From Salinibacter ruber DSM 13855 (GTDB lineage Bacteria > Bacteroidota > Rhodothermia > Rhodothermales > Salinibacteraceae): DNA of 64,000 nt. The DNA lies in assembly GCF_000013045.1 (NCBI RefSeq), contig NC_007677.1, positions 1,240,001 to 1,304,000 of the forward strand. Direction: 5' to 3'. Of this stretch, positions 45,818 to 57,169 are shown piece by piece (position 1 is the stretch's first letter; every line of letters starts with the position of its first letter). The notes under the pieces were generated by a model. That model searched no databases, was not told where the DNA came from, and worked only from the letters and a program-made list of their open reading frames with translations. A program made the position numbers and the translations under genes.

Positions 45818-46024
45818 CGCGTCGGGGCCGTTGGCGCTGTGAATCGCACCGGACCCCTGTGCCCTGACGGTTGACGTTGGCCGTGCGTGGCGATTAACGT
45901 GTTGGCGGACGGCCGCCGCATGGCCCGGCGCCGACAAGACCGAGACCGCGGGCCCACCCGCTCCGGCTCGGCCTCCGTTCGCTGCTGTCTTCAACGTGTC
46001 CTTACGAACCGACCCGACGCCCCG

Positions 46025-47095
46025 ATGCACATTCAGCGCCCCACCTTTCAACGCCCCGAACCGCCAGCGCCGAACGGCGCCCCCACGCGCCTCGCCATCA
46101 CCCTGGGCGACCCGAACGGAATCGGGCCCGAGGTGGTGCTGAAGAGCCTGCACGACCCCAGCCTGATGCCGTCCATGACCCCGGTCCTGATTGGGTCGGC
46201 GCACGTGCTGCGGGTGCACGCCGACGTGCTCGGCTTCTCGGACCTCGACATTCACATCGTGGACGAGGTGCCGGAGGAGGTGCCCCACGGGGACGTGGCG
46301 GTGCTCGACGTGGCCGAGGACCCGGAGCCCCCCGTCATGTTCGGGTCCATCACGGCGGAGGGGGGGCGCCTGGCGATGCGGGCGGTGGAACGGGCCGTGG
46401 AGGCCTGCCAGGCCGGCACCGTCGACGCGATGGTGACCGCGCCCATCTCTAAGGACGCAGTGCGACAGGGCGGGTACGACGTGCCGGGCCACACCGAGTT
46501 TTTGGCGGACAAGACGAACAGCCCGCAGCCGACGATGATGATGGTGGCCGGGGGGCTACGGGTGGGGCTCGTGACGAGTCACACTGCCCTGTCGGAGGTG
46601 CCGTCGGCCGTTACCGAGGAGGCCATCCTCGAAAAGCTGCGCGTCATCGACGCGTCCCTGCGCGACGACTTTGCGATCGAGCAGCCCAAGATTGCGGTCT
46701 TCGGGCTGAATCCGCATGCGGGAGAGGCCGGCGCCTTCGGTCAAGAAGAGGAAGAGGTCATTGCCCCCGCCCTGCGGGCCGCGCGGCAGGAAGGGTTTCG
46801 GGTCGAGGGGCCCATGGCGGCGGACGGGTTCTTTGGGACGCAGCTCGACGCCGACCACGACGCGGCGCTGGCGATGTACCACGACCAGGGCCTCGTGCCA
46901 TTCAAAGCCCTTGCGTTCGATCACGGCGTCAACTACACGGCGGGGCTGCCCATCGTGCGAACCTCCCCGGATCACGGAACGGCCTACGGCATCGCGGGCA
47001 AGGGAATGGCCCTGCCGGGCAGCATGCGAAACGCCATGGAGTTGGCCGTGGCCATTGCCCGTCATCGTCACCAGCAGGCCACGCCCGCGACATAG
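46025..47095 (+). CDS. pdxA: 4-hydroxythreonine-4-phosphate dehydrogenase
   Basis: A 356-residue enzyme of pyridoxal-5'-phosphate synthesis that oxidises 4-phosphohydroxy-L-threonine with NAD. Signatures: ITLGDPNGIGPEVVLK near 25-40, VTAPISKDA, the metal-binding His in DVPGHTEFLA near 155-165, GLNPHAGE, MYHDQGLVPFKAL near 289-301, and TSPDHGTAYGIAGKG. Length is normal with a 20-residue Pro-rich N-terminal tail. ATG 46025 was preferred to the longer frame, which starts with a basic, low-complexity stretch. Other pyridoxal genes are not in the window. Confidence 0.95.
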   Translation: MHIQRPTFQRPEPPAPNGAPTRLAITLGDPNGIGPEVVLKSLHDPSLMPSMTPVLIGSAHVLRVHADVLGFSDLDIHIVDEVPEEVPHGDVAVLDVAEDPEPPVMFGSITAEGGRLAMRAVERAVEACQAGTVDAMVTAPISKDAVRQGGYDVPGHTEFLADKTNSPQPTMMMVAGGLRVGLVTSHTALSEVPSAVTEEAILEKLRVIDASLRDDFAIEQPKIAVFGLNPHAGEAGAFGQEEEEVIAPALRAARQEGFRVEGPMAADGFFGTQLDADHDAALAMYHDQGLVPFKALAFDHGVNYTAGLPIVRTSPDHGTAYGIAGKGMALPGSMRNAMELAVAIARHRHQQATPAT

Positions 47096-47245
47096 CCCCA
47101 GGCCTGTGGGGGCTCCCTTGCGGTGGTGCGCCGAGGGTCCTGTCCGTCGGGGGCGTCTCCGCCTGACAGGACAGGAAGGGGGTTGACCCTTCCCGCCTGG
47201 ACCCCGATCCTGTTGGCTCCTCTGCCCGGCCTGATTTCCCTGTCC

Positions 47246-47929
47246 GTGATTGACTTCCGCGACGTATCCATCTCGTTCTCCCTCCCGAACGGCGATCAAC
47301 GTTCGGTTCTAGACGAGGTCTCCTTCCACATCGATCAGTCGCAGAAGACCTACCTGGTGGGCCCCACGGGCAGCGGCAAGAGCACAATTCTGCGCCTGCT
47401 CTATATGGACCTGTTTCCCGATTCCGGGGTGGTCCAGATCGGGGACTACCGGTCCGACCAGATTGAACGGGACGACATTCCGTACCTCCGGCGCTCGCTC
47501 GGGGTGGTCTTTCAGGACTTCCAACTCCTCCCGGACCGAACGGCGTACGAGAACGTCGCCTTTGCCCTCCACGCCACCGGCACGTCCGCCTCAGAAGTGC
47601 AGAGCCGGGTAACGAAGGTGCTGGGGCGGGTGGGCCTCAGTCACAAGCACCGCAGCTATCCCCACGAGCTGTCGGGGGGCGAGCAGCAGCGCGTCGTCAT
47701 CGCGCGGGCGATCGCCAATGACCCGTGGGTCCTCTTGGCCGACGAGCCGACCGGAAACTTGGACCCGTCCGTGGCCGACGAGATTCACGAGCTGTTGCTG
47801 GACCTCCACAAGCAGGGAATGACCCTCTTCGTGGCCACCCACGACCACCGGCTCGTGAAGTCCTACTCGGCCCGAACCCTCGCGATGATGAACCGCCAGG
47901 TGGTGGAGATTGACCCGGAGACGCTCTAA
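47246..47929 (+). CDS. ftsE: Cell-division ABC ATPase FtsE
   Basis: A 227-residue ATPase starting at GTG 47246. Walker A is GPTGSGKST, the Q-loop is [21 protein letters not shown] (the FtsE/LolD-type wording), the signature is LSGGEQQRV, and Walker B is [11 protein letters not shown]. The match is best to FtsE, which with FtsX controls peptidoglycan hydrolases at the septum; LolD is the alternative. FtsX is not adjacent, a separation I have also seen in other Bacteroidota-like genomes. The next gene encodes an unrelated-looking membrane protein after 144 bases. Confidence 0.85.
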
Positions 47930-48073
47930 TTCGTCCCAGGCACGGACCGGAGCGTCAGAACGACGAACAGGCAATGGCGTTGCAGTACCCATCTGCGCCG
48001 CACAACTCCCGATCCGGCGTGCGCATGGTGTATCCAACCCGATGCTCCCCCTTACGGTGTTGCGTGCGTTCCC

Positions 48074-49063
48074 ATGAGTGTCGTCTCTGCACTTCTTCGC
48101 TTCAACAGCCGTGTCTTTGATGCTTTCGAGGAGTGGTGGGAGGGCGAAGGGGCCCGCCGCGTGGTGGCCCGGGTGCTCGTCGGGGGGTTTTTGCTCTCCC
48201 TGGTGGCGATTGAGCTGAGCCGGATGGGCCTGTTGCCCGACTCGGTGGGGCGTTCGGTGTCCACCAATCACTTCAGGGCCATCGACGTTGCGTTCACCCT
48301 TTTCCTCGTGGTCGAGCTCGTGGGGCTCGTCGTCGGCCTCGCCACGAGCGTGGCCGACACGGCGGGGAAGCAGTTTGAGGTGTTTTCGCTCATTCTGCTC
48401 CGCCGCTCCTTCAAGGAGCTCGTGAAGTTCGAGCAGGAGCCCATTCGGTGGAGCATGGAGGCGGGGCGGGAGGCGGTGCAGTACCTCGTCGTGGACGCCA
48501 CGGCGGCCCTGGCCATCTTCGTCATCCTCGGCGTCTTCTACAAGGTGCAGGTGCACCAGCCGATTACCGAGTCGGAGGGGGAGCAGGAATTCTTCGTCCG
48601 ACAGAAGAAGCTGGTGGCGAATGGGCTGCTCCTCATCCTGGCTGGCCTCTCGGTGTATGCCGTGGCGGCCCCGCTCCTCGGCGGAGCGGCCATTCCCTTC
48701 TTCAACACCTTCTACACGGTGCTTATCTTCAGCGACATTCTCATTGTCCTGATGTCGCTGCGCCACAGCGTGACGTACCACGTGGTGTTTCGCAATTCCG
48801 GATTCGCCGCGGCGACGGTCATGATTCGCCTCGCCCTGTCGGGGCCCCGCTACCTGGGGGCGGCACTGGGCGTGGGCGCGGCCCTCTTCAACCTGGGGGT
48901 TGCGGCGGCCTACTACTACGTGACCCCGGCGGCGCAGGCCTCGGCCCAACGCAACCAAGAGCAGACGTCCTTCGACGACACGTCGCCGACGAGCCCGGCC
49001 GACACCGAGGACCAGCCCGTCGCGGCGGACCCCGCCGAGCCCGAATCCACGCCGGGCGTGTAG
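48074..49063 (+). CDS. Integral membrane protein of unknown function
   Basis: A 329-residue protein with six to seven hydrophobic segments (about 30-48, 70-95, 137-155, 185-203, 213-237, 248-268 and 272-290) and an acidic, Pro/Thr-rich tail from 295 that is probably disordered. A basic/amphipathic stretch RRSFKELVKFEQEP lies between the second and third segments. No transporter or enzyme motif is recognisable. It follows ftsE on the same strand; whether it works with it is not shown, and it lacks the four-helix layout of FtsX. Confidence 0.6.
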   Translation: MSVVSALLRFNSRVFDAFEEWWEGEGARRVVARVLVGGFLLSLVAIELSRMGLLPDSVGRSVSTNHFRAIDVAFTLFLVVELVGLVVGLATSVADTAGKQFEVFSLILLRRSFKELVKFEQEPIRWSMEAGREAVQYLVVDATAALAIFVILGVFYKVQVHQPITESEGEQEFFVRQKKLVANGLLLILAGLSVYAVAAPLLGGAAIPFFNTFYTVLIFSDILIVLMSLRHSVTYHVVFRNSGFAAATVMIRLALSGPRYLGAALGVGAALFNLGVAAAYYYVTPAAQASAQRNQEQTSFDDTSPTSPADTEDQPVAADPAEPESTPGV

Positions 49064-49125
49064 GGGGCCGTCGTGCCACTCGCTCGGAGGATCAAGGTCT
49101 TGACCGCACGGGCGGCCGATGTCCG

Positions 49126-49605
49126 CTAATTGGCACTCAGCATCCATTGCCGAAGCCCTTCGGGTCCCAGCTCGTCGTACATCGTCTGGATCCGGGCCAC
49201 GCCGTCGTCTGTGATGTTGGCACGGAGAATTTTCTCGATCATTGTGGCCAGTGCAGGCGGCATCTTCTGCTCAACATCGACTTCGAGGGTCCGCTCTCCT
49301 TGGTTTAGGGTGCGAAAGGCGAGCGGGGCCGCGGCCGCCGTGGCGGTCTCGGAGGGCAGATGATCGGATAAAATCTCCTGCACCACTGTCGCCGGGGAGC
49401 GGGCGTTCTGGTCCTGTGCCGTGCCCATCAATGCCTCCAATTCCGCTCGCACCTCCTCCGACAGCTGAAGGTCGTGAAGCCCATTCGTTTTCAGGTGGGT
49501 GTGAAGGCGTTGCGCCAGGCGTTCCGCCTCCTTTTCGTTTGGGATGTAGGTGAGTGTCCAACCGCGCAGCCAGTCCTGCGCCGTCGGCGTCTTGGAGGTT
49601 TCCAT
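49126..49605 (-). CDS. Protein of unknown function
   Basis: A 159-residue soluble, mainly helical protein. It starts METSKTPTAQDWLRGW; DWLRGWTLTY and LHTHLKTNGLHDLQLSEEVRAELEALMG suggest helices with a short strand pair, and the end PEGLRQWMLSAN is amphipathic. No known domain. The frame continues upstream to a TTG at 49758, but that part contains a Trp/Cys-rich stretch followed by basic sequence and is not counted. It is convergent with the membrane-protein gene. Confidence 0.5.
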   Translation of the reverse strand: METSKTPTAQDWLRGWTLTYIPNEKEAERLAQRLHTHLKTNGLHDLQLSEEVRAELEALMGTAQDQNARSPATVVQEILSDHLPSETATAAAAPLAFRTLNQGERTLEVDVEQKMPPALATMIEKILRANITDDGVARIQTMYDELGPEGLRQWMLSAN

Positions 49606-50260
49606 GTCGGTGCGTGTCGGGTCGGTTCGTTGGAAGAACGCGCGGCGTTCGGGAGCCCCCGTCCACTCGTCCCCTCTCGGCTCGGGACGAGCGTGCCACG
49701 CGCAGATTGTCGTCTGAACCCAGAAAAAGACGAACAACAGATGCGCCGAGAACCTCAATTTCCGTTTAGAATGTGGTCAAATCCCTCACAAGGACTATTC
49801 CACAAGGGGGCTGACTCGGCGAGGGCCGCCAAAGCGTGTTGCGGTGGGCGTTGAGACAACAGGCCAGGGGGAGGCGGGGTGGGCTACTCCGATGTGCAAG
49901 AGGCGAGTGCACATGTGGACGGCGGTACGAGGGCGACCACCAGGCGGACGGGTCCAAAAACGAACGGAGGTTTGTTAAATAAATGTTAAATTAAGGAGAA
50001 GTGTTGACAAACACACGCTCGCCTCTAATTTTAGAACATGCTAAGTTCATTCAACGGTGGGGCCGCCAGGAAGGCGATGTCCTCAAAACGGAGACTGGGA
50101 AGGGCTTGGGGGCACCGCAGCGCAGTCCAACGGCTGTTGGGGCCCTCGTCTCGATCTGTCGGGGGAAGACGCGTGTCGTCCCCGATCCGGAGGTCGCAGT
50201 GTCCCATGATCCGCTTGTCCGCGCCCCCTGCGTTGGCTATCGAATCGGTAGAGCAGAGGC
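49606..50260. other. Long gene-free stretch with an AT-rich promoter region
   Basis: About 655 bases. The left part is unremarkable. Around 49965-50040 the sequence becomes strongly AT-rich (TTAAATAAATGTTAAATTAAGG) and contains a good promoter, listed separately. The last 220 bases form a long leader before the propeptide-like gene; an open frame there (50038-50385) overlaps that gene in another frame and is not called. Confidence 0.5.
50004..50031 (+). promoter_or_regulatory. Sigma70-like promoter of the propeptide/subtilase pair
   Basis: TTGACA (50004-50009), a 16-base spacer and TAATTT (50026-50031), directly after an A/T-rich UP-like stretch. This is the most classical promoter in the window. 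It lies about 230 bases before the first gene of the pair, leaving a long 5' leader. Confidence 0.5.
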
Positions 50261-50638
50261 ATGTCCGACCGCGTGGTTGCCCAAGTGAGTCTCCGGTCCG
50301 CCGAGGGGTCGTCTGTGTTGGACGCCGACGAGCCCATCACGTCGGACAATGTAGACGACTACCGGGCCGGAACGAATGCGATTGAGGGCGCGAAGGAGGC
50401 GCTCCGCGGCCTCGGGTTTGACGTTGTTCAGGCCAGTGAGGTGGGGCTTTCCATCTCGGGGGACAAGGACCGATTCGAAGAGGTGTTTGACACCACGCTG
50501 AAGGCGCGCTCCAAGTCCGCCGACGCGGAGCCGGGCGATCGCCAAGCGTACGAGGCAACGGAGCCGGTTCAGGTGCCGGACGCGCTTGTGGCCTTCGTGG
50601 ACGAGATCACCTTCCCCGTTCCCCCTGAGTTTCACTAG
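50261..50638 (+). CDS. Free-standing propeptide-like protein, putative subtilase inhibitor or chaperone
   Basis: A 125-residue acidic protein without signal peptide. It is clearly related to the first 130 residues of the subtilase encoded next: both have EPIT/EPVT then NVDDY/NVDEY, EALRGLGF/RELRELGF, a strand LSISG/TISVGG followed by RFEEVF/QFQDIF, and both end in the same PPEFH. In the subtilase this segment is placed as an activation peptide, and the strand-helix wording resembles the S53 (kumamolisin) pro-domain. A lone copy would be expected to fold and block or chaperone the protease in trans. The paired gene follows after 63 bases. I know no described family for it; function is inference from homology within the window. 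Confidence 0.65.
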   Translation: MSDRVVAQVSLRSAEGSSVLDADEPITSDNVDDYRAGTNAIEGAKEALRGLGFDVVQASEVGLSISGDKDRFEEVFDTTLKARSKSADAEPGDRQAYEATEPVQVPDALVAFVDEITFPVPPEFH

Positions 50639-50701
50639 CTCGCTCGATGCACACCCGACGTTCACCCTCGATGAGCTCTTTCATCACACACCAGAAAGAT
50701 C

Positions 50702-52258
50702 ATGTCTGACGCCGAAGCAGACCAGGAAATCGTCACCATCATCTCAACCACATCTAAGGGAGGACGTTCTCTTTTCGAAACCGAAGAGCCCGTCACGGGA
50801 GCGAATGTTGACGAGTACAACTCGGATCCGGACGTTACGGAGGAGGCCGAGCGTGAACTCCGAGAATTGGGATTTCGCATTTTGGACGTGGGCCCAGCAA
50901 CCATCTCGGTCGGGGGCTCGGCCGAGCAGTTCCAGGATATTTTTGGGGTGGCCCTCGAAGGCAAAAAAAAGGAAGTGTTTGACGGAGAAGAAGCGGAGTA
51001 CTTCGATGTCGAGGAGGATGGCGAAGAAATGGCCGGGGCGCTGGGAGACTGGGCGGAGGGCGTCACTCCGGTCGTTCCCCCCGAGTTCCACACGGAGAGT
51101 CCCCTCTCGCCCATCGCGGAACCGCACTCGGACGCGTACCACTACTTCACGGTGCCCGACGAGGTTGCCACGATTCTCCGCGCCACGCGGGTGCACCGCA
51201 ACGGCATCACCGGGTCGAAGGTGGAGGTCGCGATGCCGGACACCGGATTCTACGAGCACGAATTTTACGAGCGGCGGGGCTACCGCACGCGCTCGACGAT
51301 ACTCGGGCCCGGCGCCAGCAACCCGTCGCAGGACAACTACGGGCACGGCACCGGAGAGGCGGCCAACATCTTCGCGGCCGCCCCAGACGCCCAGCTCATC
51401 CCGGTAAAGATGGGGAACGACGCGGTCGGGGCGTTCAACAAGGCCTGCAATCAGAGTCCAGACATCATCACGAACAGTTGGGGCTGGTCCGTTGACAGCC
51501 CAGGCACGTCGTGGAGCGACATCCGCAACCGCAGCCGTTCCCTGTACAACACGCTGAAGGCGATGGAGGCCGCGATCGCCAACGCCGTAAACAACGGCAT
51601 TGTCGTGTGCTTCTCCGCGGGAAATGGCCCAGGTGGGTACGGGTTTCCGGCGAGCCACCCCGACGTTATTGCTGTGGGGGGCGTCCACGTGAACTACCCG
51701 GACCTGGACCTTGAGGCCTCCAGCTACGCCGCCAGCTTCGACAGCAGTTTGTACTCGGGGCGGCAGGTGCCGGACCTCTGCGGGATGGTCGGGGACGACG
51801 TATCGTCTCTGCCCGCCCCGCTCCTCATGCTTCCTGTGCCGCCGGGAAGCCGGCTCGACACCTCGTCGACCGGGGCCGCAGACGACAGTTGGGGCCTCTT
51901 CAGCGGAACGTCGGCCGCGGCCCCGCAGGTGGCGGGGGTGGTGGCCCTGATGCTGGAGAAGAACAACTCCCTCAGCCCCTCCGACGTGAAGAAGAAACTC
52001 GTCAACCAGGCCGCCAAGGACGTGACCAAGGGCCAGAGCGCAATGGGCGACTCGGCGGGGCCGGGCGACGACGCGGCAACCGGCGCGGGCATGGTGGACG
52101 CCAAGTGGGCCTGGGTGGTGTCCATGGGCGACACGATGGCCCGCTTCTTCGAGGCGACCCCGGAGCGGCGCGAACGGCTCATCGAGGAAGACGCCGTTCC
52201 GGAAATTGACGGGGAGTTTGTGGAGGACATGATGCAGACCCTCCGTTCGCGGTCGTAG
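50702..52258 (+). CDS. Subtilisin-like serine protease (S8) with an N-terminal activation domain
   Basis: A 518-residue protease. The triad is Asp180 (EVAMPDTGF), His215 (NYGHGTGEA) and Ser404 (FSGTSAAAPQVAG), with oxyanion Asn308 (FSAGNGPGG). Residues 1-130 form the pro-like domain shared with the preceding gene product, and the junction EFHTESP near 129 is a possible cleavage site. The last 50 residues form an acidic helical tail ending in DMMQTLRSRS. There is no signal peptide, so it is either a cytoplasmic protease or exported by an unknown route. The pair sits under one promoter and is not followed by further genes on the strand. Confidence 0.88.
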   Translation: MSDAEADQEIVTIISTTSKGGRSLFETEEPVTGANVDEYNSDPDVTEEAERELRELGFRILDVGPATISVGGSAEQFQDIFGVALEGKKKEVFDGEEAEYFDVEEDGEEMAGALGDWAEGVTPVVPPEFHTESPLSPIAEPHSDAYHYFTVPDEVATILRATRVHRNGITGSKVEVAMPDTGFYEHEFYERRGYRTRSTILGPGASNPSQDNYGHGTGEAANIFAAAPDAQLIPVKMGNDAVGAFNKACNQSPDIITNSWGWSVDSPGTSWSDIRNRSRSLYNTLKAMEAAIANAVNNGIVVCFSAGNGPGGYGFPASHPDVIAVGGVHVNYPDLDLEASSYAASFDSSLYSGRQVPDLCGMVGDDVSSLPAPLLMLPVPPGSRLDTSSTGAADDSWGLFSGTSAAAPQVAGVVALMLEKNNSLSPSDVKKKLVNQAAKDVTKGQSAMGDSAGPGDDAATGAGMVDAKWAWVVSMGDTMARFFEATPERRERLIEEDAVPEIDGEFVEDMMQTLRSRS

Positions 52259-52598
52259 CGGTCCGCCGCCGCTCGACACCGGCACTGCCGAGTGTGGGGG
52301 CCGATTCCGTGCCTCCGCTGCTCGCAGTGCATCTGTACCGGCCGAGGGGGCCCGTGCCGCACAACGGGCAGCCAACCGACGGAAGTAAGGACCAGAACGG
52401 TCGGTTGGCTGCGTTGCCTGTGTGGGCAAGGGCCCCCCTCCGGCGTGTCTGCCCCTCGCTTCCCGCGCTTCTACGCTCGGTTTCCGACTGGCCGACGGCG
52501 TGTCGGCATACCGGAGGCAGGAGGGAATCCACGTCCGCGGAGAAATTGGGGGCCGTTCTCCCGTACGAGTGTGGGGGACTCGTCTCGAACGGTGCTCC
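52259..52598. other. Gene-free stretch between convergent genes
   Basis: About 340 bases between the stops of the subtilase and the HhH-GPD genes. I see no clear terminator, repeat or RNA gene. Several open frames cross it on both strands, but they are shadows with no motif. Confidence 0.4.
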
Positions 52599-53117
52599 CT
52601 ACGCCTCGTCCGAGAAGTCGCGGTGCCCGAAGTAGTGCAGGACGTACTTGATCTTCGACGCCTTCGCCGGGCCAAAGCCGGGCAGGTCCTGCAGGCGCTT
52701 CTCGATTGTGTCCAGGTCGGCGCCGTCGCTCCACAGGTTTGCCGCGTTGCCGTCGTACTCGTCCGCGATGTGCGCGGCCACCTTCTGGGTGTTCTCCGCC
52801 ATCTTGTTGACGAACCGGTGGACGGCGGGGGATTCGGAAAAGTGCTCCTGGAACGGCTCGAAGTCCATCTCGGCGATCGTCGCCATGTCGAGGTGGCCGA
52901 GGCGGTCTTTGAGGCGGAGCGGGCCGGTAAAGGCCGACTCGGCGCGGACGCGCTGGTCGTAGAGCAGGCCGAGGAGGGCGGCGTTCGGGTCGTCGCGCAG
53001 ACGGTCGTCGTCCTCGATCTCGCCGGTGAGGGTGCCTTTCTCCTTAAACCGGTCCATCATGCGGACGAGGCCGCCGGAGAGGTCGCTGTAGTCGATGTGG
53101 GTAATCTCAACTGCCAT
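52599..53117 (-). CDS. HhH-GPD superfamily protein, DNA-repair-like, short form
   Basis: A 172-residue protein. The sequence NAALLGLLYDQRVRAESAF near 45, HRFVNKMAE near 100, YDGNAANLW near 120 and the helix-hairpin-helix LPGFGPAKASKI near 144-155 match the uncharacterised HhH-GPD group known mainly from Actinobacteria. The protein ends about 17 residues after the hairpin, so the catalytic aspartate (and lysine) expected of active base-excision glycosylases cannot be placed with confidence. DNA binding is likely, glycosylase activity uncertain. It lies downstream of hemB on the same strand. Confidence 0.75.
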   Translation of the reverse strand: MAVEITHIDYSDLSGGLVRMMDRFKEKGTLTGEIEDDDRLRDDPNAALLGLLYDQRVRAESAFTGPLRLKDRLGHLDMATIAEMDFEPFQEHFSESPAVHRFVNKMAENTQKVAAHIADEYDGNAANLWSDGADLDTIEKRLQDLPGFGPAKASKIKYVLHYFGHRDFSDEA

Positions 53118-53211
53118 TTTCAGGGTGTAGGGGTCGAGGATGGGGGAATGCGGGTGTAGGGGGAACGTACACAGGGGAACGGCGAATTCGAAGCGTGTCC
53201 CCTGAAATTCG

Positions 53212-54234
53212 TCATTCTTCCAGCCAGCGGGCCGCGTCCTCCGCGAAGTAGGTCAGAATGACGTCGGCCCCGGCGCGGCGAATGCCGGTGAGGGCCTCCA
53301 GTGCACAGGCCTTCTCGTCGAGCCAGCCGTTTTGGGCGGCGGCCTTGATCATGGCGTACTCGCCGCTCACGTTGTACGCGGCGACGGGCACGTCGCTGTG
53401 CTGCTGCACGCGGTGGATGACATCGAGGTAGGGAAGCGCCGGCTTCACCATTGCCATGTCGGCGCCCTCGTCCAGGTCGAGCATGAGCTCGCGGATGGCC
53501 TCCTCGCCGTTGGCCGGGTCCATCTGGTAGGTGTCCTTGTTCGCGGGGATGTCCTTCTCAGGGGCCTCCGCCTTGTCCTCGGGCGCCGAGTCGAGGGCGT
53601 CGCGGAACGGGCCGTAGTAGTTTGACGAGTACTTGGCGGTGTAAGACAGGATTGCGGCGTCGGTGTGCCCGGCGTCGTCGAGGGCAGCGCGGAGGGCGCC
53701 CACGCGCCCGTCCATCATGTCGGATGGGGCGATGATGTCGGCCCCGGCCTCGGCGTGGAGCACCGCCATTTCGCACATCACCTGAATGGTCGCGTCGTTG
53801 TCGATGCGGCCGTCGCGCACGATTCCGTCGTGCCCGTCGCTGTTGTAGGGATCGAGGGCCGTGTCGGTGATGATCATCAGTTCCGGCACGGCGTCCTTGA
53901 GGACCCGGATCGCGTTTGGGTAGAGGTGATCAGGGTCGAGGGCGTGCTCGGCGTCCGGCGTCTTCAGGTGATCGGGGAGGGCCGGGAACAGGGCCACCGC
54001 CGGAATGCCAAGGGCATGCAGCGTCTCTGCGTGGTCGACGAGCCGGTCGATCGTGTGACGGTACGTGTCCGGCATCGACGGGACTTCTTCCCGCTGATTG
54101 TCCCCCGCCATCACGAACAGGGGCGCAATGAGGTCGTCCGTCGACAGCCGTGTCTCCCGCGCCATGCGTCGGATGTTGCGGGTCTTGCGCAGTCGACGGG
54201 GGCGGAGGGGAAGGTCGTAGTCGGAAGAAGCCAT
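53212..54234 (-). CDS. hemB: Delta-aminolevulinate dehydratase (porphobilinogen synthase), Mg-type
   Basis: A 340-residue enzyme joining two 5-aminolevulinates to porphobilinogen for haem and related tetrapyrroles. The two Schiff-base lysines are Lys201 (SYTAKYSSNYYGPFRDA) and Lys264 (MVKPALPYLDVI). The metal loop reads ALDPYNSDGHDGI near 126-138: aspartates replace the three cysteines of the zinc enzymes, as in the Mg-dependent class. An acidic insertion (about 217-233) fits the halophilic style. ATG 54232-54234 gives the normal N-terminus (MASSDYDLPLRPRRLRKT). cysS lies 92 bases upstream on the same strand. Confidence 0.96.
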   Translation of the reverse strand: MASSDYDLPLRPRRLRKTRNIRRMARETRLSTDDLIAPLFVMAGDNQREEVPSMPDTYRHTIDRLVDHAETLHALGIPAVALFPALPDHLKTPDAEHALDPDHLYPNAIRVLKDAVPELMIITDTALDPYNSDGHDGIVRDGRIDNDATIQVMCEMAVLHAEAGADIIAPSDMMDGRVGALRAALDDAGHTDAAILSYTAKYSSNYYGPFRDALDSAPEDKAEAPEKDIPANKDTYQMDPANGEEAIRELMLDLDEGADMAMVKPALPYLDVIHRVQQHSDVPVAAYNVSGEYAMIKAAAQNGWLDEKACALEALTGIRRAGADVILTYFAEDAARWLEE

Positions 54235-54326
54235 AGAGACCTCAGTGGATGGATTGACAATCGGAAAATCTGATGCGGGTGGGGACGCCCACGACATCCC
54301 GCCGTGTGTCACGAATTACGCACCAT

Positions 54327-55877
54327 TCACCCCACCTGCTCCCGCCGCTCCCATTCGGTGCCGTCGGGGGTATCCATGACCTCGATGCCCAGCGCCTCTA
54401 GCGTGTCGCGGATGGCGTCGGCGCGGGCGTATTCCCCGTCGGCGCGTGCGGCCTCCCGGTCCTCCAGAAGGGTATCGATGGAGTCGGAGAGGTGAGCGGG
54501 GGCCAATCCGTTCTCGGAGCCCGCGTCGGTGCGCTGGTCCGCCTCGTGCTCGGGCTCGACGACGCCGAGGAGCGCATTCGTGCGGTCGAGCCAGTTGCGG
54601 GCGCTCCGGGCCGTCGCCCCATTTAGGCGGTCCGTCTGCTCGATGGCCTTCACGCCATCCAGGGCGGCGGCCGTGGCGGCGGGGGTGTTGAGGTCGTCGC
54701 ACATCGCCTCGAGGGTGCGGTCGTAGATGGGGCGGAGCCGGCCGCCCAATTCGTCGGGGCCGTCGGCGTCCGCCGCCAGGGCCGCGTCGACGCGCTCCGC
54801 TGCGTCCTGGTACCGGCGAACGTGACGGGCCGCCGTGTGGAGGGTATCGAGCGTGAAGTTGAACGGCTTGCGGTACTGGCCCTGCATCAGGGCGTAGCGG
54901 AGGGCCAGTGGGTCGACGCCCCCCTGCTCCCGAACCGAATCCGGAACGTGGTCGTCGTCCGGGCCGGGGGCGATGAGGTCGCGAACGGTGTAGAAATTGC
55001 CCTTCGACTTCGACATCTTCTCGCCCTCTACCTGCAGGAAGCGGGTGTGCACCCAGTAGTTGACGACCTGGTGCCCGGCGAGGGATTGGTTCTGGGCAAT
55101 CTCACACTCGTGGTGCGGAAAGATCAGGTCCTCGCCGCCGGTGTGGAGGTCGAAGCGGTCGCCGAGGTACTGCATGCCCATCACCGAGCACTCGATGTGC
55201 CAACCGGGGTAGCCCCAGCCCCAGGGGCTGTGCCAGTGCATGAGGTGCTGGGGGTCATGCTTCCACAGGGCAAAGTCGCGCGGGTCGCGCTTGTCAGGGT
55301 CCTCTACCACGTCGCGCTCGGTGGCCTGTAGCTGTTGGGCCTCCGTGTTGCCGCTGAGATGGCCGTAGTCCTCGACGCTCTCGACGGAAAAGTAGACGCC
55401 CTGGTCGGTCGTGTAGGCGTGCTCCTTCTCGACGAGCTCGATGACGGCCTCCAACTGGTCCGTGACGTGCTCGGTGGCGCGGGGGCGCACCTCCGGCTCG
55501 CGCAGGTTCAGTGCGCCCCAGTCCTCCAGAAACGCCTCCGTGTAGTGGCGCGCCAGGTCGTAGATGTTGGCGAAGCGCTCGCCCTCCCGCTCCAGGGCCC
55601 GTTGCATCTTGTCCTCGCCCCCCGGGTCCACGAGGTCGTCCTGCGTGAGGTGCCCGACGTCCGTGATGTTGCTCACGTTGGTCACGTCCCACCCGATCGC
55701 CTCGGCGGTGCGCCGGATGAGGTCGGCCGTCAGAAACGACCGGAAGTTGCCGATGTGGGCGTACATGTACACCGTGGGCCCACAACTGTAGAAGCGGAGG
55801 TGCTCCTCCTCGATTGGCTCGACCGGCTCGGTCTCGTGCGTCAGCGTGTTGTAGAGGCGGAACGTGGGCGACGGCAT
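54327..55877 (-). CDS. cysS: Cysteinyl-tRNA synthetase
   Basis: A 516-residue class I synthetase that charges tRNA-Cys. Zinc ligand Cys and the HIGH motif appear as [19 protein letters not shown] (HIGN form); further signatures are [14 protein letters not shown] with a second zinc ligand, [18 protein letters not shown], and the loop [11 protein letters not shown]. The C-terminal anticodon domain is present, with a Glu/Ala-rich acidic end. ATG 55875-55877 begins the family's first strand ([12 protein letters not shown]), while the longer frame is noncoding in style. It precedes hemB and the HhH-GPD gene on the same strand. Confidence 0.96.
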
Positions 55878-56036
55878 GTGCGAGTGGACGGGCGGCGGGG
55901 TGAGAAGAGGTTGTGACTGGGCAGACCGTTCGGCTGTACCTCGTGCCTCGTGGATTGTGCCGTGACTTCCACGTGGACCGAAGACGAGCCGGACGGGAAC
56001 GTATGGGAGTGGGACGAGGGGACAGGGTCGTTCCAA

Positions 56037-56393
56037 TTACTCCGTGGCATCTACATCGTCGGCGTCCCACCGATCAGCTGCGTCGCGGAGCGCCTGCAGG
56101 TCGTCCCAGTAGCGGGCGATCGTGCGACGGCCATTCTCGCTCAGCGACACGGTCGTCACGGGCGTCTTGTCCGCAAACGACTTGTCCACGTCTACCAGCT
56201 CCGCCTCTTCAAGCCGCGACAGGTGGCTCGAGAGGTTGCCCCGCGTGAGGCCCGTCAGGCGCTGTAGGAACGTGAAGTCGGCCTGTCCGCACGACGAGAG
56301 GGCCGTGAGAATTGACAGCCGCGCGGGCTCGTGGATGAGCTTATCCAGTTCGGCGAGACGCTCAAACGGCACGTCGGAGTCCGGGTCACGCAT
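56037..56393 (-). CDS. Winged-helix transcriptional regulator (MarR/ArsR-like)
   Basis: A 118-residue winged-helix protein. LDKLIHEPARLSILTALSS near 16-34 and FLQRLTGLTRGNLSSHLSRLEEAELVDVDK near 42-72 form the helix-turn-helix and wing of the HTH_27 type, close to ArsR proteins but without their metal cysteines in place; the single Cys35 is not an ArsR metal site. It overlaps the end of the upstream membrane-protein gene by 8 bases, so the two are translationally coupled. The dyads before that gene are the probable binding sites. Confidence 0.85.
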   Translation of the reverse strand: MRDPDSDVPFERLAELDKLIHEPARLSILTALSSCGQADFTFLQRLTGLTRGNLSSHLSRLEEAELVDVDKSFADKTPVTTVSLSENGRRTIARYWDDLQALRDAADRWDADDVDATE

Positions 56394-57057
56394 CGGCGCT
56401 CACCTCCGTGTCGTCCATCGGGCCGAGGGTGCCGACGAGGAGGCGATGATTGTAGAGCCCGACCCCGAGGATGACGGCTCCGAGAAGCCCGTAGTTCACG
56501 GCCTGCACCAGGACCATATTGGGTGTCACCAGAGGGAGGAGGGTTACCAGGAAGAGAAGAATGCCCGTTGCCGCGTACGTCCAGCGGAGGCCAGGGAGCG
56601 GCGCCAGTAGGCTCGCAACAATTAGCATCCACCCCGGGAAAAACACGAGAAAATGGTTGTCGCCGAGGGGGGTGTGCTGCGGAATGTAAAACGTGACGAG
56701 TGCAATCCAGCAGAGGGCTCCCGTCAAGAGGGGGACGAAAGTCCATGCCGACAACACATCCCCGAGGGAACTTCCGTGTCCTTCGCGGCCTCGGACCCGC
56801 CCGTACGCGCTCTCGTAGCGTCGGTGCATGTACCATATCCACGGGGACGTGAGAACGAGGAGGGCAAGCGCTCCGAGGGGCGCCCCATGAATCAGCATCT
56901 GTGGACGCACGAGCAGACCTCCGAGCACGCCGAGAAGAAGCAGCCCCCCTGCAGGCGCGTAGCAGAGCCCCTTCAGTTGGTGATAGAACTGAGTAAAGAA
57001 CCGGACCTGGTCCGGAGAGCGAGGCGGGCCCGACGCGCGTGCTCTTGCGGAAGACAT
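56386..57057 (-). CDS. Integral membrane protein paired with the winged-helix regulator
   Basis: A 223-residue protein with about six hydrophobic segments (about 35-52, 62-78, 105-122, 136-152, 158-178 and 184-203). A cytoplasmic N-terminus starts MSSARARASGPP. The loop MHRRYESAYGRVRG near 78-91 is basic. No transporter motif is visible; proteins of this size coupled to HTH_27 regulators occur in other phyla without known function. ATG 57055-57057 fits the operators placed just upstream. The pair may sense a membrane state and set its own level. Confidence 0.7.
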   Translation of the reverse strand: MSSARARASGPPRSPDQVRFFTQFYHQLKGLCYAPAGGLLLLGVLGGLLVRPQMLIHGAPLGALALLVLTSPWIWYMHRRYESAYGRVRGREGHGSSLGDVLSAWTFVPLLTGALCWIALVTFYIPQHTPLGDNHFLVFFPGWMLIVASLLAPLPGLRWTYAATGILLFLVTLLPLVTPNMVLVQAVNYGLLGAVILGVGLYNHRLLVGTLGPMDDTEVSADA

Positions 57058-57089
57058 CGGACGAGGAGAGGCCTGTTGGGAACGCCGAC

Positions 57090-57169
57090 TTGTTTGCACT
57101 GCAAACAATCGCTGGGGAAATTTGCTCGGGCCGGTTGATGTGCCGAGCAAACCTGTTTGCGTCGCAAAC
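57090..57169 (-). promoter_or_regulatory. Three TTTGC/GCAAA dyads, probable operators of the regulator pair
   Basis: A: TTGTTTGC-ACT-GCAAACAA at 57090-57108 (perfect, 8-base arms). B: TTTGCTCGG (57121-57129) and its exact complement CCGAGCAAA (57143-57151), 13 bases apart. C: GTTTGC-GTC-GCAAAC at 57155-57169 (perfect, 6-base arms). All six half-sites share the core TTTGC. The centres of A and C are 63 bases apart, exactly six helical turns. They lie 33-112 bases before the membrane-protein start, as expected for autoregulation by the winged-helix protein. Confidence 0.75.

Follow-up and report, generated by a model that had tools for sequence, protein, structure and literature searches.

A free-standing pro-domain encoded upstream of an S8 subtilase in Salinibacter ruber: a putative in-trans partner of the neighbouring enzyme

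The 64,000-nucleotide stretch of Salinibacter ruber DSM 13855 analysed here (NC_007677.1, positions 1,240,001 to 1,304,000; the window, to which positions below refer unless another locus is named) contains a small gene (50261..50638, plus strand), followed on the same strand by the gene of an S8 subtilase (50702..52258). Judging by their alignment, the 125-residue product of the small gene and residues 1–130 of the 518-residue subtilase are homologous, and by its substitution pattern the small gene is a real gene under purifying selection. Because of this homology, the gene order, the matching C-termini and direct precedents, we propose that the small protein is an operon-encoded pro-domain, which would act in trans to inhibit, and maybe also to fold, a cytoplasmic S8 subtilase. 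We put the probability of this reading at about 0.65.

Results

The small protein is a free copy of the subtilase pro-domain

Both open reading frames (ORFs) were found where the original prediction, made from the nucleotide sequence of the window, had placed them. That prediction described the first product as a separate copy of the activation domain that the subtilase itself carries, which remains the best description. In BLASTP the small protein (P0001) aligned with subtilase residues 1–130 (encoded at 50702..51091) with 37 of 123 positions identical and an E-value of 9e-13; the shared sequence blocks named beforehand are present in this alignment, including the PPEFH end. Profile-profile comparison of the small protein with the subtilase pro-domain gave an E-value of 1e-23, and the alignment score of 170 lay far outside that of 2000 shuffled sequences (mean 33.1, standard deviation 6.0, maximum 62), so that the asserted relatedness was borne out by all three approaches. 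When the whole genome was searched with the subtilase, the small gene was the best match after the subtilase itself (E 4e-15) and no further free copy of the pro-domain was found. The pair thus has the layout of a protease with an adjacent propeptide-like inhibitor, that is, a neighbouring gene whose product is homologous to the propeptide.

The partner is a complete S8 protease. The PF00082 domain was recognized at residues 171–449 with 98.3 bits against a cut-off of 21.8, within the presumed mature part (51092..52258). The Asp/His/Ser triad and the oxyanion Asn, D180 (codon 51239-51241), H215 (51344-51346), S404 (51911-51913) and N308 (51623-51625), do not vary across an alignment of six sequences, made up of the query and five homologues of which one is a broken gene; the catalytic set listed in the original prediction is therefore intact. 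The surrounding DTG (D180), HGT (H215), AGN (N308) and GTSAAAP (S404) are what we take to be the S8 motifs. At E ≤ 1e-5, 62 sequences of solved structures matched the subtilase; the best 60 of the 62 were nearly all subtilisins, with a top E-value of 4.8e-16. Between the Asn and Ser motifs, residues 358–392 (51773-51877) hold an unusual D.CG.VG and, after it, a hydrophobic segment containing P..P; this stretch is present in all six aligned sequences and is possibly a mark of the subfamily.

As predicted, no signal peptide is evident in either protein. The maximum 11-residue hydropathy within the first 50 residues, a simple score as distinct from a signal-peptide predictor, was 0.64 for the small protein and 0.88 for the subtilase. 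Because no signal peptide is evident, we infer that the subtilase is located in the cytoplasm. Both proteins are acidic, with isoelectric points of 4.2 and 4.3.

The pair is inherited together and selected in Salinibacter

A full-length subtilase was found in 4 of the 13 genomes of the genus, and in all four the small gene lies directly upstream. The remaining subtilase matches in the genus were short and weak and fell on different S8 proteins. Of the nine genomes lacking the pair, three are only 62–83% complete. Wider sampling gave matches in 3 genomes among 296 from the phylum and in 4 among 244 from the class, all of them Salinibacter. The gene downstream of the pair is present in all 13 genomes of the genus. 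Larger regions were compared for five of the nine pair-less genomes: in two of these (G314 and G315) the site is empty, with the flanking genes 45–90 bp apart, and in the other three (G308, G309 and G310) the upstream neighbour falls outside the stretch examined.

The ratio of nonsynonymous to synonymous substitutions (dN/dS) was calculated by the NG86 method for the six pairs of the four species, with dS near 1 in several pairs. Values were 0.16–0.26 for the small gene, 0.05–0.12 for the subtilase pro-domain and 0.04–0.06 for the catalytic part. The small gene is therefore under constraint, though it is the fastest evolving of the three parts.

Comparable pairs occur outside the phylum

Outside the phylum, sampling was confined to a plasmid collection; a scan of genome contigs with one query found S. 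altiplanensis alone. A tblastn search of the plasmid records with the subtilase returned 14 records, of which six were opened. The closest full-length enzymes came from Calothrix sp. 336/3 (L029) and Nonomuraea gerenzanensis (L030) and are 62.7% identical to each other. In both, an ORF for a free pro-domain lies directly upstream on the same strand, encoding 103 residues in Calothrix (annotated as a hypothetical protein) and 82 in Nonomuraea; the latter record is an 11.85-Mb sequence filed as a plasmid, in which the stretch is unannotated and ORF starts were chosen by us. The small gene thus comes first in Salinibacter, Calothrix and Nonomuraea, with gaps of 63, 244 and 35 bp. The original prediction would have been refuted had the subtilase always stood without the small gene; instead, the small gene accompanies it in every Salinibacter carrier and in these two further genera.

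Searched against the whole plasmid collection, the Calothrix small protein retrieved the Nonomuraea small ORF (E 1e-8), and the only match of the Salinibacter small protein was the pro-domain of the Calothrix enzyme (E 0.03). A pro-domain profile run over 3762 ORFs of 18 stretches matched the six small genes, the six enzymes that go with them and two rhizobial enzymes, and nothing else; ten of these matched sequences had been used to build the profile. Rhizobial-type records numbered ten (eight Rhizobium, one Mesorhizobium, one Aminobacter), and two of them were examined. Two further plasmid matches were left out of the pair counts: one from Paenibacillus (L033), initially a candidate for a catalytic domain without a pro-domain, because its reading frame is disrupted at either end, and the weakest, from Pseudalkalibacillus (L034), in which no pro-domain match was found.

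The free proteins end at a probable cleavage point

In all four Salinibacter small proteins PEFH forms the C-terminal end, which aligns with PEFH at residues 127–130 of the subtilase. The last five residues are identical to those of the cognate enzyme at 5, 5, 4 and 5 of 5 positions, against 28–37% identity over the rest; the enzyme piece used here was cut at residue 130, and uncut BLASTP aligns the same ends. The small proteins end in EPSEFLP in Calothrix and in EPPDFHAL in Nonomuraea. The end of the free protein thus coincides with the point at which an enzyme cleaving off its own pro-domain would plausibly cut, and the alignments suggest that the enzyme's pro-domain is probably cut at the shared PPEFH end, with the small proteins ending there or at most two residues away.

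The free copies probably arose more than once

A tree of 14 pro-domains (142 columns) grouped the Salinibacter small proteins with the Salinibacter enzyme domains (eight domains, 91/92, unstarred). In approximately unbiased (AU) tests the placement of all six small proteins in one clade was rejected (p 0.024), and a grouping of the four Calothrix and Nonomuraea domains was not (p 0.60). The program warned of long branches meeting, and gene conversion could mimic this result. The Calothrix and Nonomuraea small proteins are each other's best match (score 137); against the Calothrix enzyme domain, the Salinibacter small protein scores 121 and the Salinibacter enzyme's pro-domain 87. A single common origin of all small genes was thus rejected by the AU test and by the clustering of the Salinibacter domains. 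These data favour two separate releases of the pro-domain, which are not proven because the rows are few and long-branched. On the Salinibacter side, the stem branch of the subtilase pro-domain is long (1.35) and that of the free copy short (0.34), as if the free copy had kept older features.

The pro-domain resembles the S53 type more than I9

The original prediction judged the pro-domain closer to the S53 than to the I9 type, and in this it was supported, with the Pfam cut-off unreached. Pro-kuma_activ (PF09286) matched the small protein with an E-value of 0.016 and 15.9 bits, below the cut-off of 23.5. Of six small proteins scanned, four matched at E ≤ 1, with a best value of 0.0016, and those of Calothrix and Nonomuraea did not; on the enzymes' own pro-domains Pro-kuma_activ was weaker, matching one of the five S8 proteins scanned (Rhizobium, E 0.22). 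In a scan of the whole genome the small protein was the best place, with an E-value of only 0.07 and a second place almost equal, and no Pro-kuma match rose above the cut-off. Inhibitor_I9 (PF05922) was found neither on the small protein or the subtilase (P0002) at E ≤ 1 nor in the genome at E ≤ 10. A search of Protein Data Bank sequences with the small-protein profile gave ten matches at E ≤ 1; every one was to troponin C, with E-values no better than 0.05, and we treated them as chance.

The AlphaFold2 model of the small protein (125 residues, four alignment rows) reached a predicted local distance difference test (pLDDT) score of 73.6, with a low-confidence C-terminal tail, and contains the strand and helix order expected of an I9 fold. 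Foldseek placed the pro-domains of kumamolisin (1t1e, E 7e-4) and TPP1 (3ee6, E 3e-3; 3edy, E 4e-3) at ranks 1–3, and VIA-align gave the same three Z-scores of 8.6, 8.8 and 8.2 (root-mean-square deviation 3.2–3.7 over 108–109 residues), the next row having a Z of 6.2. The aligned TPP1 ranges reach residue 304, presumably past the end of the TPP1 pro-domain. Propeptides of the subtilisin type and POIA1 scored 4.9–5.7 over 63–74 residues, a level shared with unrelated folds that have the same overall shape. As models without a true match typically reach a best Z of 7 to 8 in VIA-align, the S53 lead is clear by rank and not large; both lists leave other folds possible. With the three top ranks in both methods, the model, itself of moderate confidence, has the kumamolisin/TPP1 pro-domain fold. 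The partner is not an S53 peptidase but an S8 enzyme with a catalytic His. The modelling thus speaks for an S8 enzyme bearing a pro-domain of the S53 type, formal Pfam membership not being reached.

Gene layout and neighbourhood

The intergenic gap of 63 bp (50639..50701) has the same length in all four Salinibacter carriers, and a promoter and terminator scan called none within it. A candidate promoter, TTGACA-16-TAATTT in AT-rich surroundings, was read by us at 50004..50031 (plus strand). The box recurs 5′ of the small gene in the carrier genome G191 and in an altered version in S. altiplanensis; the carrier G306 has a TATAAT within an AT-rich stretch, without TTGAC[AG]. The single AT-rich promoter predicted for both genes is partly supported: the gap is constant and free of called promoters, and the favoured box itself was not called by the scan, which returned two other sites (52206, plus, and 50010, minus). 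Co-transcription of the small gene and the subtilase as a two-gene operon is presumed.

On the minus strand, upstream of the small gene, lies a divergent gene with no assigned function (49126..49605; 159 residues counted from a conserved start, with the ORF extending to 49758), which has no Pfam family at E ≤ 0.001. Together with the small gene and the subtilase it forms a block of about 3.5 kb (49064..52598), absent between the same neighbours in G314 and G315. Among 27 genomes of the family, its close homologues occur only in the four pair-bearing genomes, with weak matches in G310. There, the weak homologue lies about 2 kb from an S8 gene; a general tie between the divergent gene and S8 proteases was rejected, and this proximity regarded as coincidence, because that S8 protein is of another type (1046 residues, with a hydrophobic N-terminus by eye).

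Nine neighbouring genes (45887-57150) are housekeeping-like (PdxA, ABC ATPase, ALAD, CysS, winged-helix regulator) or without a Pfam match, PADLOC found among them only generic ATPase and helix-turn-helix matches, and neither search gave a hint of a subtilase substrate. A part in anti-phage defence was discarded: the PADLOC match of the subtilase itself is partial and to a generic subtilase model, and the matches among its neighbours are the generic ones just named. The subtilase had no match in phage records, and in IMG/VR one weak partial match of 40 residues was left unused.

Several side observations concern the loci outside Salinibacter. By eye, the Calothrix gap (L029:5700-5943) holds several near-identical tandem copies of the subtilase start region, and a degraded integrase-like stretch precedes the broken Paenibacillus copy (L033:5049-6990). 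One rhizobial homologue lies amid folE, queC, queE, purB, adenylosuccinate synthetase and IMP dehydrogenase, that is, genes of purine or 7-deazapurine type (L032:3960-13161), and another near a beta-RFAP synthase-like gene (L031:2125-8232). Both loci encode a similar protein of about 495 residues (the L032 one with a weak AMP-binding match) and an Ala/Ser/Glu-repeat peptide of 83–88 residues. They may represent a pathway for a peptide-linked nucleoside in which the subtilase is the maturation protease.

Discussion

Proposed mechanism and its alternatives

We envisage that the subtilase would process itself after H130, and that the free copy would then bind the mature enzyme in trans, at the site vacated by the enzyme's own pro-domain; the PPEFH at the C-terminus of the free copy would then occupy the substrate cleft much as a cleaved product does. 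So bound, it would keep the subtilase inactive inside the cell until some physiological trigger frees the enzyme; it might also assist folding. Several results weigh against this proposal. The cleavage point was partly deduced from the shared end, and for this reason the fact that the free proteins end there does not count as independent evidence. Past the aligned EFL or DFH, the small proteins of Calothrix and Nonomuraea have one (P) or two (AL) further residues, and they are without about 30 N-terminal residues present in Salinibacter. In the Rhizobium and Mesorhizobium loci the enzyme has its pro-domain and no free copy was found within 6 kb. The faster evolution of the small gene relative to the subtilase pro-domain (0.16–0.26 vs. 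0.05–0.12) fits a looser or changed role equally well. As to the fold, the Pfam scores for PF09286 stay under the curated cut-off (15.9 vs. 23.5 bits), and the structural matches come from a model of moderate confidence, with a single Foldseek match below E 0.001 and Z-scores (8.2–8.8) barely above 7–8. A model of the full 518-residue subtilase, from a two-row alignment, reached a pLDDT of 32 only and was not used.

By analogy with ORF2, which serves the Aeromonas sobria serine protease ASP, the free copy could mainly be a folding helper in trans that is afterwards degraded. We consider this doubtful. In its favour, the small gene is adjacent, upstream and on the same strand, so that a helper may be made first, and in the ASP system the chaperone gene stands beside that of the protease and the chaperone's C-terminus around the catalytic site (PMC5638518). 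A second helper seems unneeded, however, for a subtilase that carries a pro-domain itself, and the two roles overlap in that ORF2 is an inhibitor of its protease in vitro as well (PMC5638518). The retained cis pro-domain speaks as well against a system of the toxin-antitoxin or effector-immunity kind, in which the free pro-domain would be the antidote to a subtilase harmful to the cell or its neighbours. Such a system would agree with the antidote-first gene order, the lack of a signal peptide, the plasmid location of the Calothrix pair and the patchy occurrence (four carriers among the 13 genomes of the genus, an empty site in 2 of 5 examined), and an immunity role has been proposed for emfourin, the operon inhibitor of the intracellular metalloprotease protealysin (PMC9505478). 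Yet the nine neighbours, housekeeping-like or without Pfam match and with generic PADLOC hits only, offer it nothing, and inheritance at one chromosomal place in four species fits an ordinary role equally; we regard it as improbable. We would also attach little weight to the wider idea of an undescribed bacterial intracellular subtilase with an S53-type pro-domain that was released independently at least twice, as an upstream partner gene for a dedicated antidote, which would restrain a cell-damaging protease until a signal removes the antidote.

That the small gene is a functionless relic of a partial tandem duplication would agree with its being a nearby paralogue that evolves faster than the enzyme; it is very hard to reconcile with an intact gene in four of four carriers, with its dN/dS of 0.16–0.26, with the invariant PEFH and with comparable pairs in two other phyla. 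Equally far-fetched, in our estimate, is a free pro-domain that acts on another protease, or that serves the subtilase as substrate or signal. Two features would suit such a role, a fold nearest to that of S53 pro-domains and an identity of only about 30% with the domain of its own enzyme. Against it, the small gene adjoins a subtilase in all six loci found, the C-terminal residues of its product match the pro-domain of the cognate enzyme, and the genome offers no Pro-kuma match above the cut-off. In-trans inhibition of the neighbouring subtilase remains our preferred reading.

Comparison with known systems

Pro-domains usually serve once and are then destroyed. Here the same domain appears both in cis and, under selection, in trans, the enzyme is apparently intracellular, and the arrangement is found in three bacterial phyla. 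Free copies ending at PPEFH or within two residues of it offer a simple model for how a pro-domain may turn into an independent inhibitor, and an S53-type domain on an S8 enzyme bears on the exchange or inheritance of pro-domains between the two families. The best fold matches, the pro-domains of kumamolisin (1t1e) and TPP1 (3ee6, 3edy), are attached to S53 enzymes, whereas in Salinibacter the domain belongs to an S8 enzyme and has a second copy next to it.

SUB1-ProM of Plasmodium is a stand-alone propeptide-like protein, encoded beside subtilase genes, and a potent and selective inhibitor of SUB1, an enzyme which likewise retains its own propeptide; truncation of its C-terminus left parasite growth unchanged (PMC6993865). 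It differs in being eukaryotic, in acting in the parasitophorous vacuole and in having a structure closest to the SUB1 (S8) propeptide (PMC6993865); the Salinibacter pair is bacterial, with no signal peptide seen, an S53-type pro-domain and two adjacent genes on the same strand. POIA1, the yeast peptidase B inhibitor and Arabidopsis subtilisin propeptide-like inhibitor 1 (MEROPS I9) are also small free propeptide-like inhibitors of subtilases, but eukaryotic and without significant sequence similarity (PMC6993865). The structure of POIA1 was among our weaker matches (Z 5.1), and the Salinibacter small protein differs from this group as a recognizable paralogue of the neighbouring enzyme's domain, nearer to an S53 pro-domain.

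In Streptococcus pyogenes the gene of the protease SpeB is juxtaposed and co-transcribed with that of Spi, an inhibitor analogous to the propeptide (PMC2873492, citing Kagawa 2005). The likeness lies in a propeptide-like inhibitor gene beside a protease gene. SpeB itself is a secreted C10 cysteine protease, unlike the S8 enzyme of Salinibacter. ASP of Aeromonas sobria is a serine protease with an operon partner, ORF2, which is both chaperone and inhibitor and places its C-terminus around the catalytic site; its gene lies downstream, and ASP is extracellular and needs ORF2 for activity (PMC5638518). In the Salinibacter pair the partner gene is upstream and the enzyme has a pro-domain of its own. 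Protealysin and emfourin of Serratia proteamaculans are likewise an intracellular protease and its inhibitor in one operon, but protealysin is a metalloprotease and emfourin the prototype of its own inhibitor family (PMC9505478). In the literature covered, largely without subscription papers, we found no account of a bacterium in which a free-standing pro-domain of the S53 type accompanies an S8 enzyme, and novelty is to that extent unproven. The general kind is thus known from SUB1-ProM, SpeB-Spi and ASP-ORF2, while its bacterial form, with an S53-type pro-domain on an S8 enzyme and an occurrence across phyla, appears to be new.

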